NCBI GenBank assembly: GCA_949299455.1
Contig: CASGAN010000006.1
Coordinates: 1-64,000, forward strand
Direction: 5' to 3'
DNA length: 64,000 nucleotides
Origin: an uncultured Oscillospiraceae bacterium
Lineage (GTDB): Bacteria; Bacillota; Clostridia; Oscillospirales; Ruminococcaceae
This document shows positions 50,845-60,468 of this stretch, piece after piece (position 1 is the first letter of the stretch; each line of letters begins with the position of its first letter). A program made the translations under genes and the position numbers. The notes under the pieces are model-generated. The model searched no databases. It was not told where the DNA came from and was given only the letters and a program-made list of their open reading frames with translations.

Positions 50845-50880
50845 AAGGCACCGAAACAAAATCGCTTCGGTGCCTTTTAT
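50845..50880. terminator. Terminator of nadE, shared with the convergent lipoprotein gene
   Basis: Stem AAGGCACCGAA with its complement, ten-base loop, T-rich tail; seven bases past the nadE stop. Confidence 0.88.
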
Positions 50881-50905
50881 TGTATGGAGGACTTCATTAC
50901 TAATC

Positions 50906-52222
50906 TTATTCTGTGATATATACTTGCAGACGGCTCTGCACCTGATCCATAAATTGATCCGTTTCCATGTTCCCTGCATAATAGTTATCGAATAAATCCG
51001 AGAGTGCATACTGCCAGATACTCGGCACCACAATGTTAAACACCTCTGTGTGAGGATCTCGATATTGCTCGGGATATTTTTTATATTCGCTGACTAAATT
51101 CCAGCTGTATCCGCTATTCACCACATCTTCTGCAAGCAGTGCCTGAATATATGCATATGCAATTTCTTGATTTTTGCTGGAGGCAGGAATTGCGACCCAA
51201 CGAATCGCATAATCGCAGTATTGATTGTTCATATCAGTCAATGAAAGCGAAATCATACTGTCCTTACGCACACCGTCCGTGCTGATTCCTTCTCCATACA
51301 AAAAATACCGGTTTTCTCTCGATGCATTCGCTTCAAACTCCAGTATCCCCTGATCACCTAAACCGGATTCCTCAATGTCCGACGAAATGGTTCGAATTGC
51401 TTCCACAATCCGTTTCACCGTCGGATTGTCAAAATCAACTTTTCCCGTTTGATAATCGGCAATCGTAAGTCCGCAGACATCAAACACAAGTGATTTCAAA
51501 ACCCGAAACCGAAAATCCGGCATAATCGACGGTGCATCCGGGTCATCTCCGTATTTCTCAACCCAGTCCGCACACTGTTCCAAAAACGTTATAATATTCA
51601 TTGACAGCGCATTCGGATAATCTTCCTGCGTCGCCTGCGGCAAAGGAAATGCCCATTGCTCCACAAGCTCTTCATTTGTAAAGAACACCAAAGAAGAATC
51701 TAAAATCGGTACAAAGGTCCATCGCTCATCCGAAGCAATTGCATCCGCAGAATTTCCCTTCATGTATGTCGTGGTATCAAGCTGGCCGTTTTCTTCCGCC
51801 AGCGGATTCAAATCTGCAAATGCGCCGCTCTGCATCAGCTTATACCAATCAGGCGGTACTGCTTCCGGCCATTCGAGATATATTGCATCGCCCATTACAA
51901 TATCTCCCGCCTGACCTTTTCGCAAATCATTCGTTATTCTATCGTAATATTCCTGAAGCGGCGTAATATCTGTATCCTTGTATTGGCGTGAAGAAAGCAT
52001 CAGATACTGCGTCGCCGGCCACCAGTTGCGTGTAATTGTAATATCCGGATATGTTTGCAATAAGTTTTCCTCTGCCGCTCGATACCACAGATCGTTTTCA
52101 TTGGAAATAAAATAAAACGAAAGCGAATTGTTTTTTTGCTCGACCACATCAGCACCGCATCCACTCAGCAGAACAGAAATAAATAAGATAATCGCCGCAA
52201 TACCATTTCGATTTTTCTTCAT
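50906..52222 (-). CDS. Orphan extracellular solute-binding lipoprotein
   Basis: A 438-residue protein with a lipobox signal (ISVLLSGC, Cys near residue 22), so it is lipid-anchored outside the membrane. The body resembles family 1 ABC solute-binding proteins (sugar type): LSFYFISNENDLWYRAAEENLL at the start, DIVMGDAIYLEW, FVPILDSSLVFFTNEELVEQ and a C-terminal helical lobe. No permease genes are next to it, so it may serve a distant transporter or be a sensor. The gene has its own consensus promoter with an inverted repeat just downstream. Confidence 0.82.
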   Translation of the reverse strand: MKKNRNGIAAIILFISVLLSGCGADVVEQKNNSLSFYFISNENDLWYRAAEENLLQTYPDITITRNWWPATQYLMLSSRQYKDTDITPLQEYYDRITNDLRKGQAGDIVMGDAIYLEWPEAVPPDWYKLMQSGAFADLNPLAEENGQLDTTTYMKGNSADAIASDERWTFVPILDSSLVFFTNEELVEQWAFPLPQATQEDYPNALSMNIITFLEQCADWVEKYGDDPDAPSIMPDFRFRVLKSLVFDVCGLTIADYQTGKVDFDNPTVKRIVEAIRTISSDIEESGLGDQGILEFEANASRENRYFLYGEGISTDGVRKDSMISLSLTDMNNQYCDYAIRWVAIPASSKNQEIAYAYIQALLAEDVVNSGYSWNLVSEYKKYPEQYRDPHTEVFNIVVPSIWQYALSDLFDNYYAGNMETDQFMDQVQSRLQVYITE

Positions 52223-52285
52223 AAATAAAACCTCCTCTCACAATAACGTTCTTTTTTAAATCCTTTTTTCAGTTCTCATTATTAT

Positions 52286-52314
52286 ATACATTCAATTTTA
52301 TGAATTAAATGTAT
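52286..52314. promoter_or_regulatory. Inverted repeat after the lipoprotein promoter, candidate operator
   Basis: Arms ATACATTCAATT and AATTAAATGTAT (one mismatch) with five bases between, starting about four bases after the likely transcription start. Confidence 0.45.
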
Positions 52315-52324
52315 TTCTATTTAT

Positions 52325-52353
52325 AATATATCTCATGACAGTTCATAAGTCAA
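52325..52353 (-). promoter_or_regulatory. Promoter of the solute-binding lipoprotein gene
   Basis: The minus strand has TTGACT (52353-52348), 17 bases and TATATT (52330-52325), both near-consensus, about 100 bases before the start codon. Confidence 0.75.
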
Positions 52354-52485
52354 TAGTTGTTTCCTCAATTATTCAAAAAAATATCTTATTTATCTTTGCA
52401 AACGACGAATTCATTCGGTTTTCATGATCGTTTTCATGTTCTAAATGTGTTTAAAAACAAAAATATTCCATCATATCATCAAACA

Positions 52486-56851: not shown

Positions 56852-57256
56852 TCATTCAATTCCTTCATAATAGCACACGATTTTTTCCATAATATCGGGC
56901 GGCAAATCGAAATATTCTGCAAGCTGCCAAATTTCCACATTACCCTGCATCACTGCGTGATGAAGCGCATCCTCTGACACCAGATGCTCATACGCCCACA
57001 CATTTGCACGCCGTTCATGCCGGCTTTTTAAATCAAACGGACTGTATCGGTTATAAAACGCGCCGCGCACACAGTGACCAAGCTCATGGGCAAGGCAAAC
57101 CCGCTCCTGCTGCACAGACTCCATATGCGTATCGAGTGCAATAAAGCAGTCGCCTTCTTCGTCCATCAGCGAAATCGCCTTTGTATTCGGCAGCGGGATC
57201 TGATCCACTGTGATCTGCTCGTCCTGCGCCAGTTTATACAGTGCTTTTAAATCCAT
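56852..57256 (-). CDS. ImmA/IrrE family metallopeptidase
   Basis: A 134-residue zinc protease: HELGH at 57-61 within VCLAHELGHCVRGAFYN, and a downstream ERRANVWAYEHL segment supplying the third ligand. In ICE and phage systems such ImmA proteases cut the partner XRE repressor to start induction. It overlaps the repressor gene by 23 bases, fitting a repressor/antirepressor pair. Confidence 0.92.
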   Translation of the reverse strand: MDLKALYKLAQDEQITVDQIPLPNTKAISLMDEEGDCFIALDTHMESVQQERVCLAHELGHCVRGAFYNRYSPFDLKSRHERRANVWAYEHLVSEDALHHAVMQGNVEIWQLAEYFDLPPDIMEKIVCYYEGIE

Positions 57257-57590
57257 TCTGTTTGCGTTCCTTTACAAATTGGGCATACGCCTTTACTTCT
57301 TCAAACATCTCGTCTGTAATATTTTCCGACTCACCGAACAGCGCAAATTTAATTTCATCATCGCTTGCCGTATGGCTTTGCTTATCGCTGCTTTCCCCCA
57401 GCAAATACGCAACCGACACATGAAAATATCCGGCGATCTTGCTCGTTGTCGTTGCGGAAAGTGTCTGCGTCCGTCCCTGCTTTAATTCTGTTAGCGTGCT
57501 CCGTCCAATGTCCAAATCCCGGCACATTGCCGTCACGTTTGTGTGGTGTGCACGACACAGTGATTCAATAATTTCATACATTCCCGCCAT
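57234..57590 (-). CDS. XRE family repressor (ImmR/phage cI type)
   Basis: A 118-residue protein with an N-terminal helix-turn-helix (about 8-60: NVTAMCRDLDIGRSTLTELKQG, then SKIAGYFHVSVAYLLG) and a C-terminal tail that probably mediates dimers and ImmA cleavage. It is divergent from the sigma-like/terminase genes, and palindromes in the shared region fit its binding sites. AGAGGTG lies about nine bases before the ATG. Confidence 0.92.
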   Translation of the reverse strand: MAGMYEIIESLCRAHHTNVTAMCRDLDIGRSTLTELKQGRTQTLSATTTSKIAGYFHVSVAYLLGESSDKQSHTASDDEIKFALFGESENITDEMFEEVKAYAQFVKERKQNGFKSTV

Positions 57591-57640
57591 TTTTCATAAC
57601 ACCTCTCGCTTTTGGATAAAAACGCCTTGACAAATACTGC

Positions 57641-57673
57641 ATTCTGTAATACCATAATATAAAAATACAGAAT
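57641..57673. promoter_or_regulatory. Candidate repressor half-sites ATTCTGTA and TACAGAAT
   Basis: ATTCTGTA (57641-57648) and its complement TACAGAAT (57666-57673), 17 bases apart, in front of the repressor gene. The same half-sites form the full palindrome at 57835-57856. Confidence 0.6.
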
Positions 57674-57789
57674 TCAGCTATATTCGCGTTTCTTGCTATA
57701 ATAGTACCCTGTTTTTTCCCTCCTGTCAACATTTTTCGACAAATCCAGTAATAAAGGCGACGAAAATGACGAATCCAATTGTTTATTAC

Positions 57790-57795
57790 TATAAT
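57790..57795 (+). promoter_or_regulatory. -10 box of the sigma-like/terminase unit
   Basis: Perfect TATAAT on the plus strand, with an ATGACG-like -35 about 18 bases upstream. The -35 match is weak, as in promoters that need an activator. Confidence 0.45.
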
Positions 57796-57834
57796 AGCAG
57801 GAGGAAACACGAACTTTCTCATCAAAAATAATAC

Positions 57835-57856
57835 AATATTCTGTATACAGAATATT
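57835..57856. promoter_or_regulatory. Perfect 22-base palindromic operator
   Basis: Eleven-base arms AATATTCTGTA and TACAGAATATT meet with no spacer, 18 bases before the sigma-like gene. They share the ATTCTGTA half-site found in front of the repressor, so one regulator probably binds both. Confidence 0.75.
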
Positions 57857-57874
57857 ACTGAAAGGACGCTTGCT

Positions 57875-58309
57875 ATGACAAAAGAATCATTAAGCCAGCT
57901 TCTCTGGCTCAAAAAAGAAATTGCGCTCGAGCAGCGCCGTATGCATGAGCTGGACGCACTGATTGCAGGAAGCGCATCCGGTGCTGCGGGATTCCCATCG
58001 CTCGACGAAGAAGAACGCGCCTATTTCGCAGACGAACTGCAAACATGCCGGAATCAGGTACGTGCAAAACTGTTAACTGCCATGCACGAATATCAGCGTC
58101 TGAATGAATACATCGCATCGATTGATGACAGCTTGATGCGGCAGATTTTATCGCTGCGCTATATCAACGGCTTTTCCTGGCAGCAAATTGCATTTTGCAT
58201 CGGAGAACACGATGAACAATATCCGCGCCGAAAACATCAGTCATTCCTTGCACACTCCAATCAATCAGCGGCAGGTGTCCCCGTCCATGCGCATTACACC
58301 AGAAGCTGA
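57875..58309 (+). CDS. Phage sigma-like/DUF1492-type regulator
   Basis: A 144-residue protein with a helical N-terminus (about 1-90) and a C-terminal sigma-region-4-like motif LMRQILSLRYINGFSWQQIAF, common in phage late-gene regulators of the DUF1492/ArpU type. AAGGA lies eight bases before the ATG at 57875; the longer frame to 57779 would cross the palindrome. The end overlaps the next ORF. It probably activates the packaging genes, by analogy. Confidence 0.7.
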   Translation: MTKESLSQLLWLKKEIALEQRRMHELDALIAGSASGAAGFPSLDEEERAYFADELQTCRNQVRAKLLTAMHEYQRLNEYIASIDDSLMRQILSLRYINGFSWQQIAFCIGEHDEQYPRRKHQSFLAHSNQSAAGVPVHAHYTRS

Positions 58310-58475
58310 CCGTCGTTTGATCGACACACTGTTTGCACGGTACAGACAAATAAAAGAACAACAGAAACAAACTTCTCTTTCCGCTGCACATTGGTATACG
58401 CAAATGCTGCATGATGAAGAAATGTATCTGCGCCGACAGTTGTACGAACGCGGCTATGATCCCGATGAATGTTAA
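58287..58475 (+). CDS. Small phage-type protein of unknown function
   Basis: A 62-residue charged helical protein (MRITPEADRRLIDTLFARYR, Gln/Lys-rich middle, end QLYERGYDPDEC). AGGTG lies nine bases before this ATG. An earlier ATG at 58212 with GGAGA upstream would give 87 residues but overlap the previous gene by 98 bases. I do not recognise a family; its place just before TerS is usual for small phage ORFs. Confidence 0.5.
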   Translation: MRITPEADRRLIDTLFARYRQIKEQQKQTSLSAAHWYTQMLHDEEMYLRRQLYERGYDPDEC

Positions 58476-58492
58476 AAAAGGAGGCGATTTTT

Positions 58493-59053
58493 ATGATTCG
58501 TGCATCTTGTGTGGGATGCATTTACCACAGGCAGCTCGGCGATGCCGAAACATGGGGATGCCACTACTTGCTCGATACCGGCGAGCTGCGCGGATGTCCT
58601 GCGCACGCCTGCACCAAAAAGCAGTACCCTGACACGCAAAAGGTACGCACCCAGACAATGCTGCGCGCTGTACGGTATTTTTCGGAATGCCGCGGACGCG
58701 CCGTTTTGGATGAAAAAGGGACGGCCATGCGCGCCAAAGACGGCACACCACTGCGCGAAGGCGTTCATCCGCCGACGGTCGCAGGACTTGCGCTGGCGCT
58801 CGGCTTTTGCTCAAGGCAGGATTTAAAAGATGCCGCACAGACGAAAGAGCTCGGCGACATCATCCGCTGGTCACTCGGAAAATGCGAAGAATACCTGGAA
58901 GAAAAGCTGTGCGAAAGCGCCGCCGGCGTCAAACTCTCGCTCATGAACAATTTCCCCGGTTGGAGCGAGTCATCCCCGGATGAAGCACACACCGAAATCC
59001 ACGTCACACTCGAGGGGGAATCACATGGCCAAACATCACAGCAAAACGTTTGA
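58493..59053 (+). CDS. terS: Terminase small subunit with N-terminal Cys module
   Basis: A 186-residue protein. The N-terminus (about 1-45) is cysteine-rich (CVGCIYH, WGCHYLL, RGCPAHAC), a zinc-finger-like module often a separate ORF in phages. A middle-to-C-terminal part matches DNA-packaging gp3/TerS: HPPTVAGLALALGFCSRQDL, then KCEEYLEEKL and KLSLMNNFPGW. TerS selects the viral DNA for packaging. GGAGG lies eight bases before the ATG at 58493. It overlaps TerL by 29 bases. Confidence 0.8.
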   Translation: MIRASCVGCIYHRQLGDAETWGCHYLLDTGELRGCPAHACTKKQYPDTQKVRTQTMLRAVRYFSECRGRAVLDEKGTAMRAKDGTPLREGVHPPTVAGLALALGFCSRQDLKDAAQTKELGDIIRWSLGKCEEYLEEKLCESAAGVKLSLMNNFPGWSESSPDEAHTEIHVTLEGESHGQTSQQNV

Positions 59054-60422
59054 CATCCACATCAAAAAAGAAGCGTTCAACGACGTATATCTGCCATTGC
59101 TCCACTGCCAGAAGCGTTATATTGTACTGTGCGGCGGTGCCGGCTCGGGCAAGTCGGTCTTTACTGTTCAGCGGTATTTATATCGGCTGCTGACAGAACC
59201 GGGCAGAAACCTGCTCGTCGTACGCGCCGTACAAGCTACGCACCGAAACTCTACATTCGCACTGTTTCGCCAGATGATCGGCAAATGGAATCTCACACCG
59301 CTGTTTGAGATCGCTGAGGGACTTGAGCGCATCCGCTGCAAAAACGGCAACGAGATCATTTTCAAAGGACTCGACAACAGCGAAAAGCTCAAATCCGTCA
59401 CCTTTTCAAGCGGTGAACTGACGGATATCTGGGTGGAGGAAGCAAGTGAAATCGAAGAACATGACTTCAATCAGCTTGCCATTCGTTTGCGCGGCGGTAC
59501 CGTTTCCAAGCAGATTGTTCTGTCATTTAACCCTGTAAGCGTGCACCACTGGCTCAAGCGCCGGTTTTTCGATCATCCGCCAAAGGACGCCGTCACGCTG
59601 CGCACCACTTACAAGGATAACCGCTTTTTATCACCGGAAGACGGCGCGGTGCTCGAATCGTTCCGCGAAACAGACCCATATTACTATCAGGTCTACTGCC
59701 TCGGTGAGTGGGGTGTTCTGGGCAAAAGTGTATTCGACGCACAGGCCGTCAACCGCCGCTTGAACGAAATTCGTTCGCTGTCGGTGCGGTGCGGCTCGTT
59801 TGTATGCTGTGAGCAGGACGGCACACTCCATGAGATTCAGTTCATCGACGAGCCGGACGGCGCCATCCGTATCTACTCTCCGCCCGAGCCGGGTGTGCAG
59901 TATGTGATCGGCGGTGACACCGCCGGCGACGGATCGGATGCATTCGTCGGTCAGGTGATCGAAAGCCGCACCGGCAGACAGGTGGCAACGCTGCACCGCT
60001 CGTTCGACGAAGATGTGTATGCCAAGCAGATGTTCTGTCTTGGCACCTACTATAACAACGCACTGATTGCATGTGAGGTCAATTTCTCAACGTATCCGGT
60101 GCGCGAATTACAGCGTCTGCACTATCCAAGACAGTACTACCGCGAAATTTACGACTCGATCACCCGCGACATGGAATACCGTTATGGATTTTTAACAAAC
60201 CGGATTACCCGTCCGGTCATTTTGGCAGAGCTGATTCGCATTGTCCGCGAACAGCCTGAGCTGTTTTGTGACGAACGCACACTCAATGAAATGCTCACAT
60301 TCGTCCGCAGTAAAGACGGACGCGCAGAGGCGGCAAGCGGTGCACACGACGACTGTGTGATGGCACTTGCGATCGCGTTTGCGGCACGTCATCAGGCGGC
60401 GGGCGCAATCGACGAAGAATAA
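59025..60422 (+). CDS. terL: Terminase large subunit, PBSX family
   Basis: A 465-residue packaging motor and nuclease. Walker A GGAGSGKS (37-44), Walker B DIWVEEASE (about 135-143), coupling motif VLSFNPVS, and the RNase H-like nuclease with VIGGDTAGDGSDAF (about 294-306) and a late SGAHDDCVMALAIAF are all present. Nothing is missing, so it could be active. It starts at 59025 inside terS. No portal gene follows; a terminator and a chromosomal gene do. Confidence 0.93.
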   Translation: MAKHHSKTFDIHIKKEAFNDVYLPLLHCQKRYIVLCGGAGSGKSVFTVQRYLYRLLTEPGRNLLVVRAVQATHRNSTFALFRQMIGKWNLTPLFEIAEGLERIRCKNGNEIIFKGLDNSEKLKSVTFSSGELTDIWVEEASEIEEHDFNQLAIRLRGGTVSKQIVLSFNPVSVHHWLKRRFFDHPPKDAVTLRTTYKDNRFLSPEDGAVLESFRETDPYYYQVYCLGEWGVLGKSVFDAQAVNRRLNEIRSLSVRCGSFVCCEQDGTLHEIQFIDEPDGAIRIYSPPEPGVQYVIGGDTAGDGSDAFVGQVIESRTGRQVATLHRSFDEDVYAKQMFCLGTYYNNALIACEVNFSTYPVRELQRLHYPRQYYREIYDSITRDMEYRYGFLTNRITRPVILAELIRIVREQPELFCDERTLNEMLTFVRSKDGRAEAASGAHDDCVMALAIAFAARHQAAGAIDEE

Positions 60423-60430
60423 CGGCATAT

Positions 60431-60463
60431 AAAAAACGCACCTTTTAAAAAGGTGCGTTTTTA
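60431..60463. terminator. Shared terminator of terL and the methionine gamma-lyase family gene
   Basis: Perfect stem AAAAACGCACCTTTT with its complement, two-base loop, A-rich and T-rich sides; between convergent genes. Confidence 0.9.
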
Positions 60464-60468
60464 TTGTA

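Follow-up and report, generated by a model that had tools for sequence, protein, structure and literature searches.

A terminase block maintained by selection in an uncultured Oscillospiraceae bacterium, possibly the packaging locus of a dispersed gene-transfer-agent-like system

The window analyzed here is a stretch of 64,000 nucleotides (contig CASGAN010000006.1, positions 1 to 64,000; assembly GCA_949299455.1) from an uncultured Oscillospiraceae bacterium. At positions 56852 to 60466 it carries a short block of six genes that includes a repressor and both subunits of a phage-type terminase, the small (TerS) and the large (TerL). We tentatively read this block as the locus of packaging and command in a gene transfer agent (GTA)-like system, dispersed and domesticated, that has been kept by selection. 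An earlier note on this DNA had offered a decaying prophage, a satellite-like element, and a domesticated DNA-processing module as possible readings, and the last of these proved to be the best supported. In the mechanism that we envisage, DNA damage would activate the ImmA protease, which would take the XRE repressor off its palindromic operator; and one operon would then supply a sigma-like activator, to turn on late genes located elsewhere, along with the TerS-TerL pair, which would take in host DNA, cut it, and pump it into heads encoded in trans. The features of the block are as follows.

56852..57256, minus strand: ImmA/IrrE-type metalloprotease, predicted anti-repressor (Pfam Peptidase_M78, 2.9e-10; phrog_87, metallo-protease)
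57234..57590, minus strand: XRE-family repressor (Pfam HTH_26, 1e-6; phrog_8)
57627..57729: divergent promoter region, with promoter-like hexamers at 57627-57655 (plus) and 57729-57701 (minus), matches to consensus only
57835..57856: predicted repressor operator, a perfect 22-bp palindrome upstream of the sigma-like gene
57875..58309, plus strand: sigma-like late regulator (PHROG phrog_36, "transcriptional regulator," 8e-11)
58212..58475, plus strand: small open reading frame (ORF) of 87 aa, starting within the sigma-like gene (98-nt overlap)
58493..59053, plus strand: TerS (phrog_606, 8e-9; Pfam GP3_package, 1.5e-5, just under the cut-off)
59025..60422, plus strand: TerL, with ATPase and nuclease domains (Pfam Terminase_3, 1.9e-52; NCBIfam TIGR01547, the PBSX-type TerL, above the cut-off)
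60432..60462: perfect hairpin terminator of 15 nt, between terL and a convergent methionine gamma-lyase family gene

All of the elements that the earlier note had listed (XRE, ImmA, sigma-like protein, small ORF, TerS, TerL, terminator, and chromosomal gene) were found in place with Pfam, PHROG, and NCBIfam. The ImmA and XRE genes lie on the minus strand, divergent from the sigma-like gene, the small ORF, TerS, and TerL on the plus strand, and the block is bordered by an ABC transporter pair on one side and by the methionine gamma-lyase family gene on the other. The six ORFs that separate the ABC transporter from the lyase gene included no integrase, replication, portal, capsid, lysis, or capsid-remodelling gene, in agreement with the note's view that no other phage genes were present. 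There was no tRNA gene in the window, and the direct repeats that the note had proposed to look for did not appear at the block borders, where no pair resembling phage attachment (att) sites was found. The ImmA translation contained an HELGH motif. For the sigma-like protein, matches to Pfam DUF1492 and sigma-70 region 4 fell below the cut-off; the protein was 44% identical to a homologue in the L098 prophage (here and below, G and L labels denote genomes and loci of relatives in this analysis, except that G000 is the window's own genome; G007 is Merdimmobilis hominis An559). The small ORF matched no family in Pfam or PHROG. TerS consisted of a Cys-rich N terminus followed by a GP3_package-type packaging domain; its structure model was of moderate quality (predicted local distance difference test score [pLDDT], 68), with P22 TerS as the top match in the PDB, a weak one (E value, 0.46), and with matches to predicted viral gp3 packaging proteins at 1.5e-4 and 7.9e-4. 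A phage fusion was also considered as the origin of this TerS and was set aside, as a scan of viral contigs with the window TerS gave no relative. The catalytic residues of TerL, those of the ATPase and of the nuclease alike, were intact; its structure model was unusable (mean pLDDT, 48). At an E value of ≤0.001 the window TerL was the sole match to itself in G000; a second TerL of that genome, on contig C18, belongs to a prophage and is unrelated.

Among 60 relatives besides G000, a near-identical TerL (98%) was present in G007 alone. This genome carried the same short block at the same site, with no stop codons in the block genes, and block and flanks were both about 94% identical to the window. 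The block is inherited vertically together with its chromosomal flanks. Nei-Gojobori counts between G000 and G007 (changes given as nonsynonymous/synonymous) yielded dN/dS ratios of 0.025 for TerL (7/71), 0.016 for TerS (2/31), 0.048 for the sigma-like gene (2/11), 0.012 for XRE (1/19), and 0.042 for ImmA (3.5/18.5), so that five of the six block genes lay at 0.012 to 0.048, in the range of most of the six flanking genes compared, some of them named by eye (lyase, 0.023; ABC, 0.036 and 0.039; NadE-like, 0.039; M42-like, 0.039; GNAT-like, 0.232). The small ORF stood at 0.38 (32.5/19.5) with an indel, its middle part being fast-changing and its C-terminal 14 residues identical. Values of dS ranged from 0.125 to 0.302 in the block (0.470 for the small ORF), overlapping those of the flanks (0.207 to 0.355); the five constrained genes lay at 0.26 to 0.30, except the sigma-like gene at 0.125. 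Because dN/dS was low at a flank-like dS, purifying selection must have acted on the reduced block itself since the species split. The earlier note had called for the dN/dS of terL, and the value obtained denotes strong constraint. Since the same site is occupied in G007 and five of the six genes are constrained, the block is not decaying.

A different state was found in G002, which keeps the XRE gene (88% identical, with synonymous sites near saturation; L069 9989-10333) beside the ABC gene, and in which ImmA, the sigma-like gene, and the terminase were not present at this place. This state is a loss of the block plus a rearrangement that moved the lyase gene to another contig, and because the ABC-XRE part and the lyase part lie on separate contigs beside other genes, G002 could not be used as an empty site. 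The search of relatives that the note had suggested recovered the block at its site in G007. In G005 there was no phage gene upstream of the ABC gene, and in G001 to G006 the only TerL match was one in G003, on a contig other than that of the flanks. When congeners were searched for a complete prophage at this site (one genome per species, with flanks examined gene by gene in congeners other than G001, G003, G004, and G006), G007 had the same short block and G002 had XRE only.

A scan of 396 genomes of the family identified 11 with a TerL match at an E value of ≤1e-60: G000 and G007; G073, G177, and G298, near full length; G151, truncated where its contig ends; and five in which only the nuclease half matched. 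Across 50,697 phage records no TerL match reached 60% identity, and 4 of 1185 matches covered 80% of the protein. Further scans by peptide patterns provided the best 80 of 222 relatives in IMG/VR and the best 80 of 140 in GTDB-species genomes. Portals were sought within 8 kb of TerL at all 80 IMG/VR loci and at 65 of the genome loci (15 remote ones omitted), with three prophage portals as queries, which themselves matched Pfam P22_portal or SU10_portal weakly and PHROG phrog_156 (portal) at 2.7e-37. Among the best 80 of 222 viral relatives, a portal was found near TerL in 72, and 3 of the remaining 8 had fewer than 500 bases after TerL; among the 65 loci from the best 80 of 140 genome relatives, 34 had no portal match. 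Three of the loci without a query-portal match (L206, L250, and L251) carry other portal types by eye, and these, together with L193, which has capsid genes, are not counted among the 22 portal-less TerLs described below. In two of the 22 (L202 and L214) the sequence following TerL is limited to 179 and 524 bases.

The portal-less TerLs fell into two groups in a tree of 83 TerLs (27 of the 80 viral loci, 55 of the 65 genome loci, and the window) built by a quick method with support from the Shimodaira-Hasegawa-like approximate likelihood ratio test (SH-aLRT) only. The window and L192 joined L196, L214, and L218, the TerLs of G073, G177, and G298, none of which has a portal after TerL, and a second portal-less group of 17 rows had a support of 99. 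Because portal-bearing prophage TerLs fall between the two groups, the portal-less state has probably had two or more origins. By shared flanking genes the 22 loci formed 11 site groups (short contigs may hide links), and therefore the cassettes occupy several sites but, within a lineage, stay at their site as they are inherited. The 17 cassettes of the second group, with genes named by Pfam on examples, comprised an XRE-S24 repressor (16 cassettes), a small ORF (14), TerS (17), a holin (14), and a lysin (9), with a capsid match in none; the sole cassette with no repressor has just 1.4 kb upstream. Lysis genes are thus mostly a holin and often a lysin in the second group, and neither was seen in the window's group. 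By hhalign the small ORF of the window was unrelated to that of the second group (probability, 0.3). The ATPase and nuclease motifs that the earlier note had described as kept were indeed intact: 12 of 14 TerL positions checked were invariant in all 22 portal-less TerLs (positions 134 and 302 vary), namely, the Walker A Lys and Ser, two Glu residues after Walker B, the motif III Asn, and nuclease-half positions 298, 305, 351, 353, 441, 442, and 443, with roles that we take from established terminase knowledge. In three pairs from the second group, dN/dS was below 0.3 for each gene tested (TerL, 0.047, 0.104, and 0.195). As candidate partner heads for this group, the PF05133 loci of G424, G425, and G426 were opened and rejected, these being ordinary-looking prophages with a terminase-like gene (by eye) just before the portal; PF04860 and PF05133 also gave matches in further genomes of the second group.

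In G073, G177, and G298 (also labeled G421, G422, and G423), the terminase locus consists of a repressor, a sigma-like gene, a short TerS, and TerL. When 19 genomes, a set that omits four of the 17 second-group genomes (those of L202, L204, L209, and L211), were searched with a profile of the type of portal that lies behind related prophage TerLs, one portal each was found in G073, G177, and G298 and none in the other 16 (the G423 match extends one codon beyond its stop), and a profile of the corresponding capsid matched in the same three genomes only. The head locus runs in the order portal, small ORF, scaffold-like ORF, capsid, connector-like ORF, large virion protein, unnamed ORF, and GH25 endolysin and is flanked by host-type genes; in these stretches no ORF matched the TerL profile or the TerS, S24-repressor, and sigma-like queries. 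Packaging and head genes, as expected of a GTA, are therefore both present in these three host genomes, at two loci each, and by analogy the terminase locus and the separate head locus resemble a GTA split over loci. G177 and G298 were closest to each other at both loci (repressor, 85%; TerL, 81%; capsid, 91%), with G073 more distant from the two (repressor, 68%; TerL, 60 to 62%; capsid, 86%); portal identity was compared for G073 and G298 only. The core of the operator at the terminase locus was also present upstream of the portal gene in G298, with one mismatch (0 of 2000 shuffles were as good), and in G177, with two, a weaker match (38 of 2000). The TerS proteins of the three genomes, at 79 to 127 aa, lack the GP3_package part in the alignment and gave no GP3_package match. 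Both the recurrence of portal-less loci and the separate heads in three relatives were beyond the reach of a note made from a single sequence.

In the window, the palindromic operator is identical in G007 and degenerate in the G002 alignment. Its 18-base core, with up to three mismatches, occurred once across the window (0.01 expected), and half-operators lie at 57641 and 57666, near the XRE promoter. The exact 16-base core was found once each in G000 and G007, at the block only. With up to three mismatches allowed, there were 12, 16, and 13 forward matches in G000, G007, and G002, versus 1, 3, and 2 for a reversed-core control; since G002, which has no operon, shows the same excess, it was not read as a regulon. 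One of the inexact sites, with one mismatch, falls within an ORF of G000, and one with two mismatches precedes a 96-aa reading frame shared by G000 and G007, with a two-mismatch site elsewhere in G002. As marks of a partner locus, these sites were judged unconvincing.

Among known systems, the left end of PBSX in Bacillus subtilis has a repressor, an ImmA-like gene, the sigma-like gene xpf, and TerS-TerL (XtmA and XtmB) within a single cluster that includes head, tail, and lysis genes. The window block shares with PBSX the order of control and terminase genes, a TIGR01547 TerL, a phrog_36 regulator, and an XRE-ImmA (M78) switch; it differs in that the head, tail, and lysis genes of PBSX are missing, with a terminator and then a host gene after TerL. 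An XRE repressor beside an M78 protease is likewise found in ImmR-ImmA of ICEBs1 and in CapH-CapP of CBASS (cyclic-oligonucleotide-based antiphage signaling systems), in which the switch governs a conjugative element and a defense operon, respectively, and not a terminase operon.

By analogy, the nearest known system to the loci described here is FpGTA of Faecalibacterium. Its report describes capsids of about 40 nm, about 9 kb of packaged DNA, and two separate operons, of which operon I holds TerS-TerL with portal and capsid and the second holds tail and lysis genes (PMC12946183). The same report describes the TerS as having no obvious DNA-binding domain, calls FpGTA the first GTA-like element of the human gut microbiome, and states that more FpGTA genes may await discovery (PMC12946183, 2026). 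FpGTA is a GTA-like system of gut Clostridia with two operons, TerS-TerL, and podovirus-like heads (PMC12946183), and in this it is like the split loci described here. It differs in that its TerS-TerL pair adjoins portal and capsid (PMC12946183), whereas the window pair stands apart from any head gene. The lack of a TerS DNA-binding domain seems to hold for G073, G177, and G298 and not for the window. Clusters L250 (Ruthenibacterium) and L251 (Faecalibacterium), each with an S24 repressor, a TerS-like gene, TerL, portal, and capsid, look like homologues of the FpGTA cluster. Only the nuclease half of their TerLs aligned to the window TerL (48 to 49% identity), a hint that GTA-like terminases may have exchanged domains, and the L250 portal and capsid were unmatched by the portal and capsid profiles of this analysis. 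In the literature searched, no description of portal-less terminase cassettes was found, the FpGTA report being the closest work (PMC12946183).

Vertical inheritance, purifying selection (in two species), and the lack of integrase and replication genes among the six ORFs all agree with what is expected of a GTA. Several results, taken together, weigh against the proposal that the window block serves a dispersed GTA-like system. By profiles of the expected kind, G000 and G007 hold packaging genes only: portal and capsid of the kind present in G073, G177, and G298 were not found in either genome, in which FpGTA-type heads were not searched for; a PF04860 portal was absent from both; and the only PF05133 portal of G000 lies in the complete-looking C18 prophage (L295 12243-15562 and L296), which has its own terminase (GP3_package TerS, Terminase_6N TerL, and SPP1-type portal). 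Because the head ORFs of L250 and L251 escape the portal and capsid profiles used, an FpGTA-type head could still be encoded in G000 or G007. With the exact operator present in a single copy, no second repressed locus was found in these two genomes. Across 53.5 kb of G177, four further sites with at most two mismatches occurred besides the one at the portal promoter, one of the four being the terminase promoter, and G073 had half sites only, its operator match being no better than chance (309 of 2000 shuffles). Whereas the short TerS of the three relatives lacks the packaging domain, that of the window retains it and therefore need not be nonspecific as described for GTAs. Finally, the full-length form of TerL is rare (5 of 396 family genomes), and the grouping of the window in the tree has an SH-aLRT support of 90 in a quick tree with no bootstrap.

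A broader proposition, to which we give clearly less credence than to the GTA-like reading of the window block, is that headless terminase cassettes, kept by selection and governed by damage-type repressors, form a family in the Oscillospirales and work in trans with distant heads, which in some species would be encoded at another locus of the host and in others would be those of infecting phages, or absent. If this were true, bacteria would be keeping packaging control as a separable, domesticated unit and moving it from one chromosomal site to another. A terminase locus apart from head genes could also escape methods that seek clusters of phage genes. G073, G177, and G298 offer a two-locus candidate system for testing, and the window, with strongly selected packaging genes and no matching head found, makes the role of a headless terminase testable.

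Two alternatives appear unlikely to about the same degree. One is a headless satellite-like module, induced by damage or by an incoming phage, whose TerS and TerL would fill the heads of a phage, either co-resident or infecting, with chromosomal DNA from around a local pac site and so favor transfer of the surrounding chromosome. Phage satellites, namely, phage-inducible chromosomal islands (PICI), cf-PICI, and P4-like elements, have small gene sets that include a phage-type repressor and a terminase gene. The failure to find expected-type head genes in either G000 or G007, the GP3_package-type domain retained by TerS, and the second-group cassettes that keep holin and lysin genes and have no capsid match would all suit such a module, and the complete-looking G000 prophage could provide heads. 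However, the window block differs from satellites in having no integrase, replication, or capsid-remodelling genes and no att repeats, and it is vertically inherited; G007 has no portal of the three kinds searched; and the G000 prophage, with its SPP1-type portal and own terminase, is a poor fit, as the viral relatives of TerL have another kind of portal in 72 of 80 cases (best 80 of 222). The satellite-like element of the earlier note corresponds to this rival.

The other is a domesticated nuclease-motor that acts independently of heads, in which derepressed TerS and TerL would cut or move cellular DNA for suicide, defense, or DNA release. TerL is strongly constrained though no heads were found, a terminase is present in every cassette while lysis genes vary, and ImmA and XRE show a weak likeness in PADLOC to CapP (6.5e-6) and CapH (0.0032), a pair that controls some CBASS defense operons. 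On the other hand, TerS and TerL were unmatched in PADLOC at an E value of ≤0.01, the ATPase residues have been kept along with those of the nuclease, and heads in trans exist in three relatives. A slowly decaying prophage remnant with frames intact by chance, the first of the earlier note's readings, is very improbable and in its simple form is rejected on dN/dS between G000 and G007: the block genes are like the early/late-junction genes of related prophages such as L098, and G002 has lost everything except the repressor gene, but neither relaxed selection nor broken frames were seen in XRE, ImmA, the sigma-like gene, TerS, and TerL, and similar reduced blocks recur in two TerL groups.

Some further observations were made alongside these results. 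In the alignment, the TerS of the G000 C18 prophage shares an insert with the window TerS that the second group does not have, and a prophage similar to that on C18 is present in G002 (C87; L297). L193, L099, and L100 have capsid genes after the terminase (scaffold-like by eye), and a portal was not found in the stretch examined. In three IMG/VR loci (L345, L352, and L353) the capsid precedes the portal with no TerL in the stretch examined, an arrangement of permuted head clusters. The cassettes at L211, L212, L198, L194, and L209 adjoin other genes, which by eye are presumably lexA-like (L211 and L212), spoIVA-like (L198), and spoIIE-like (L194 and L209). Elsewhere in the window, positions 50877-52470, with a solute-binding-protein-like ORF (50906-52222, by eye), are absent from G007 at an otherwise syntenic place.

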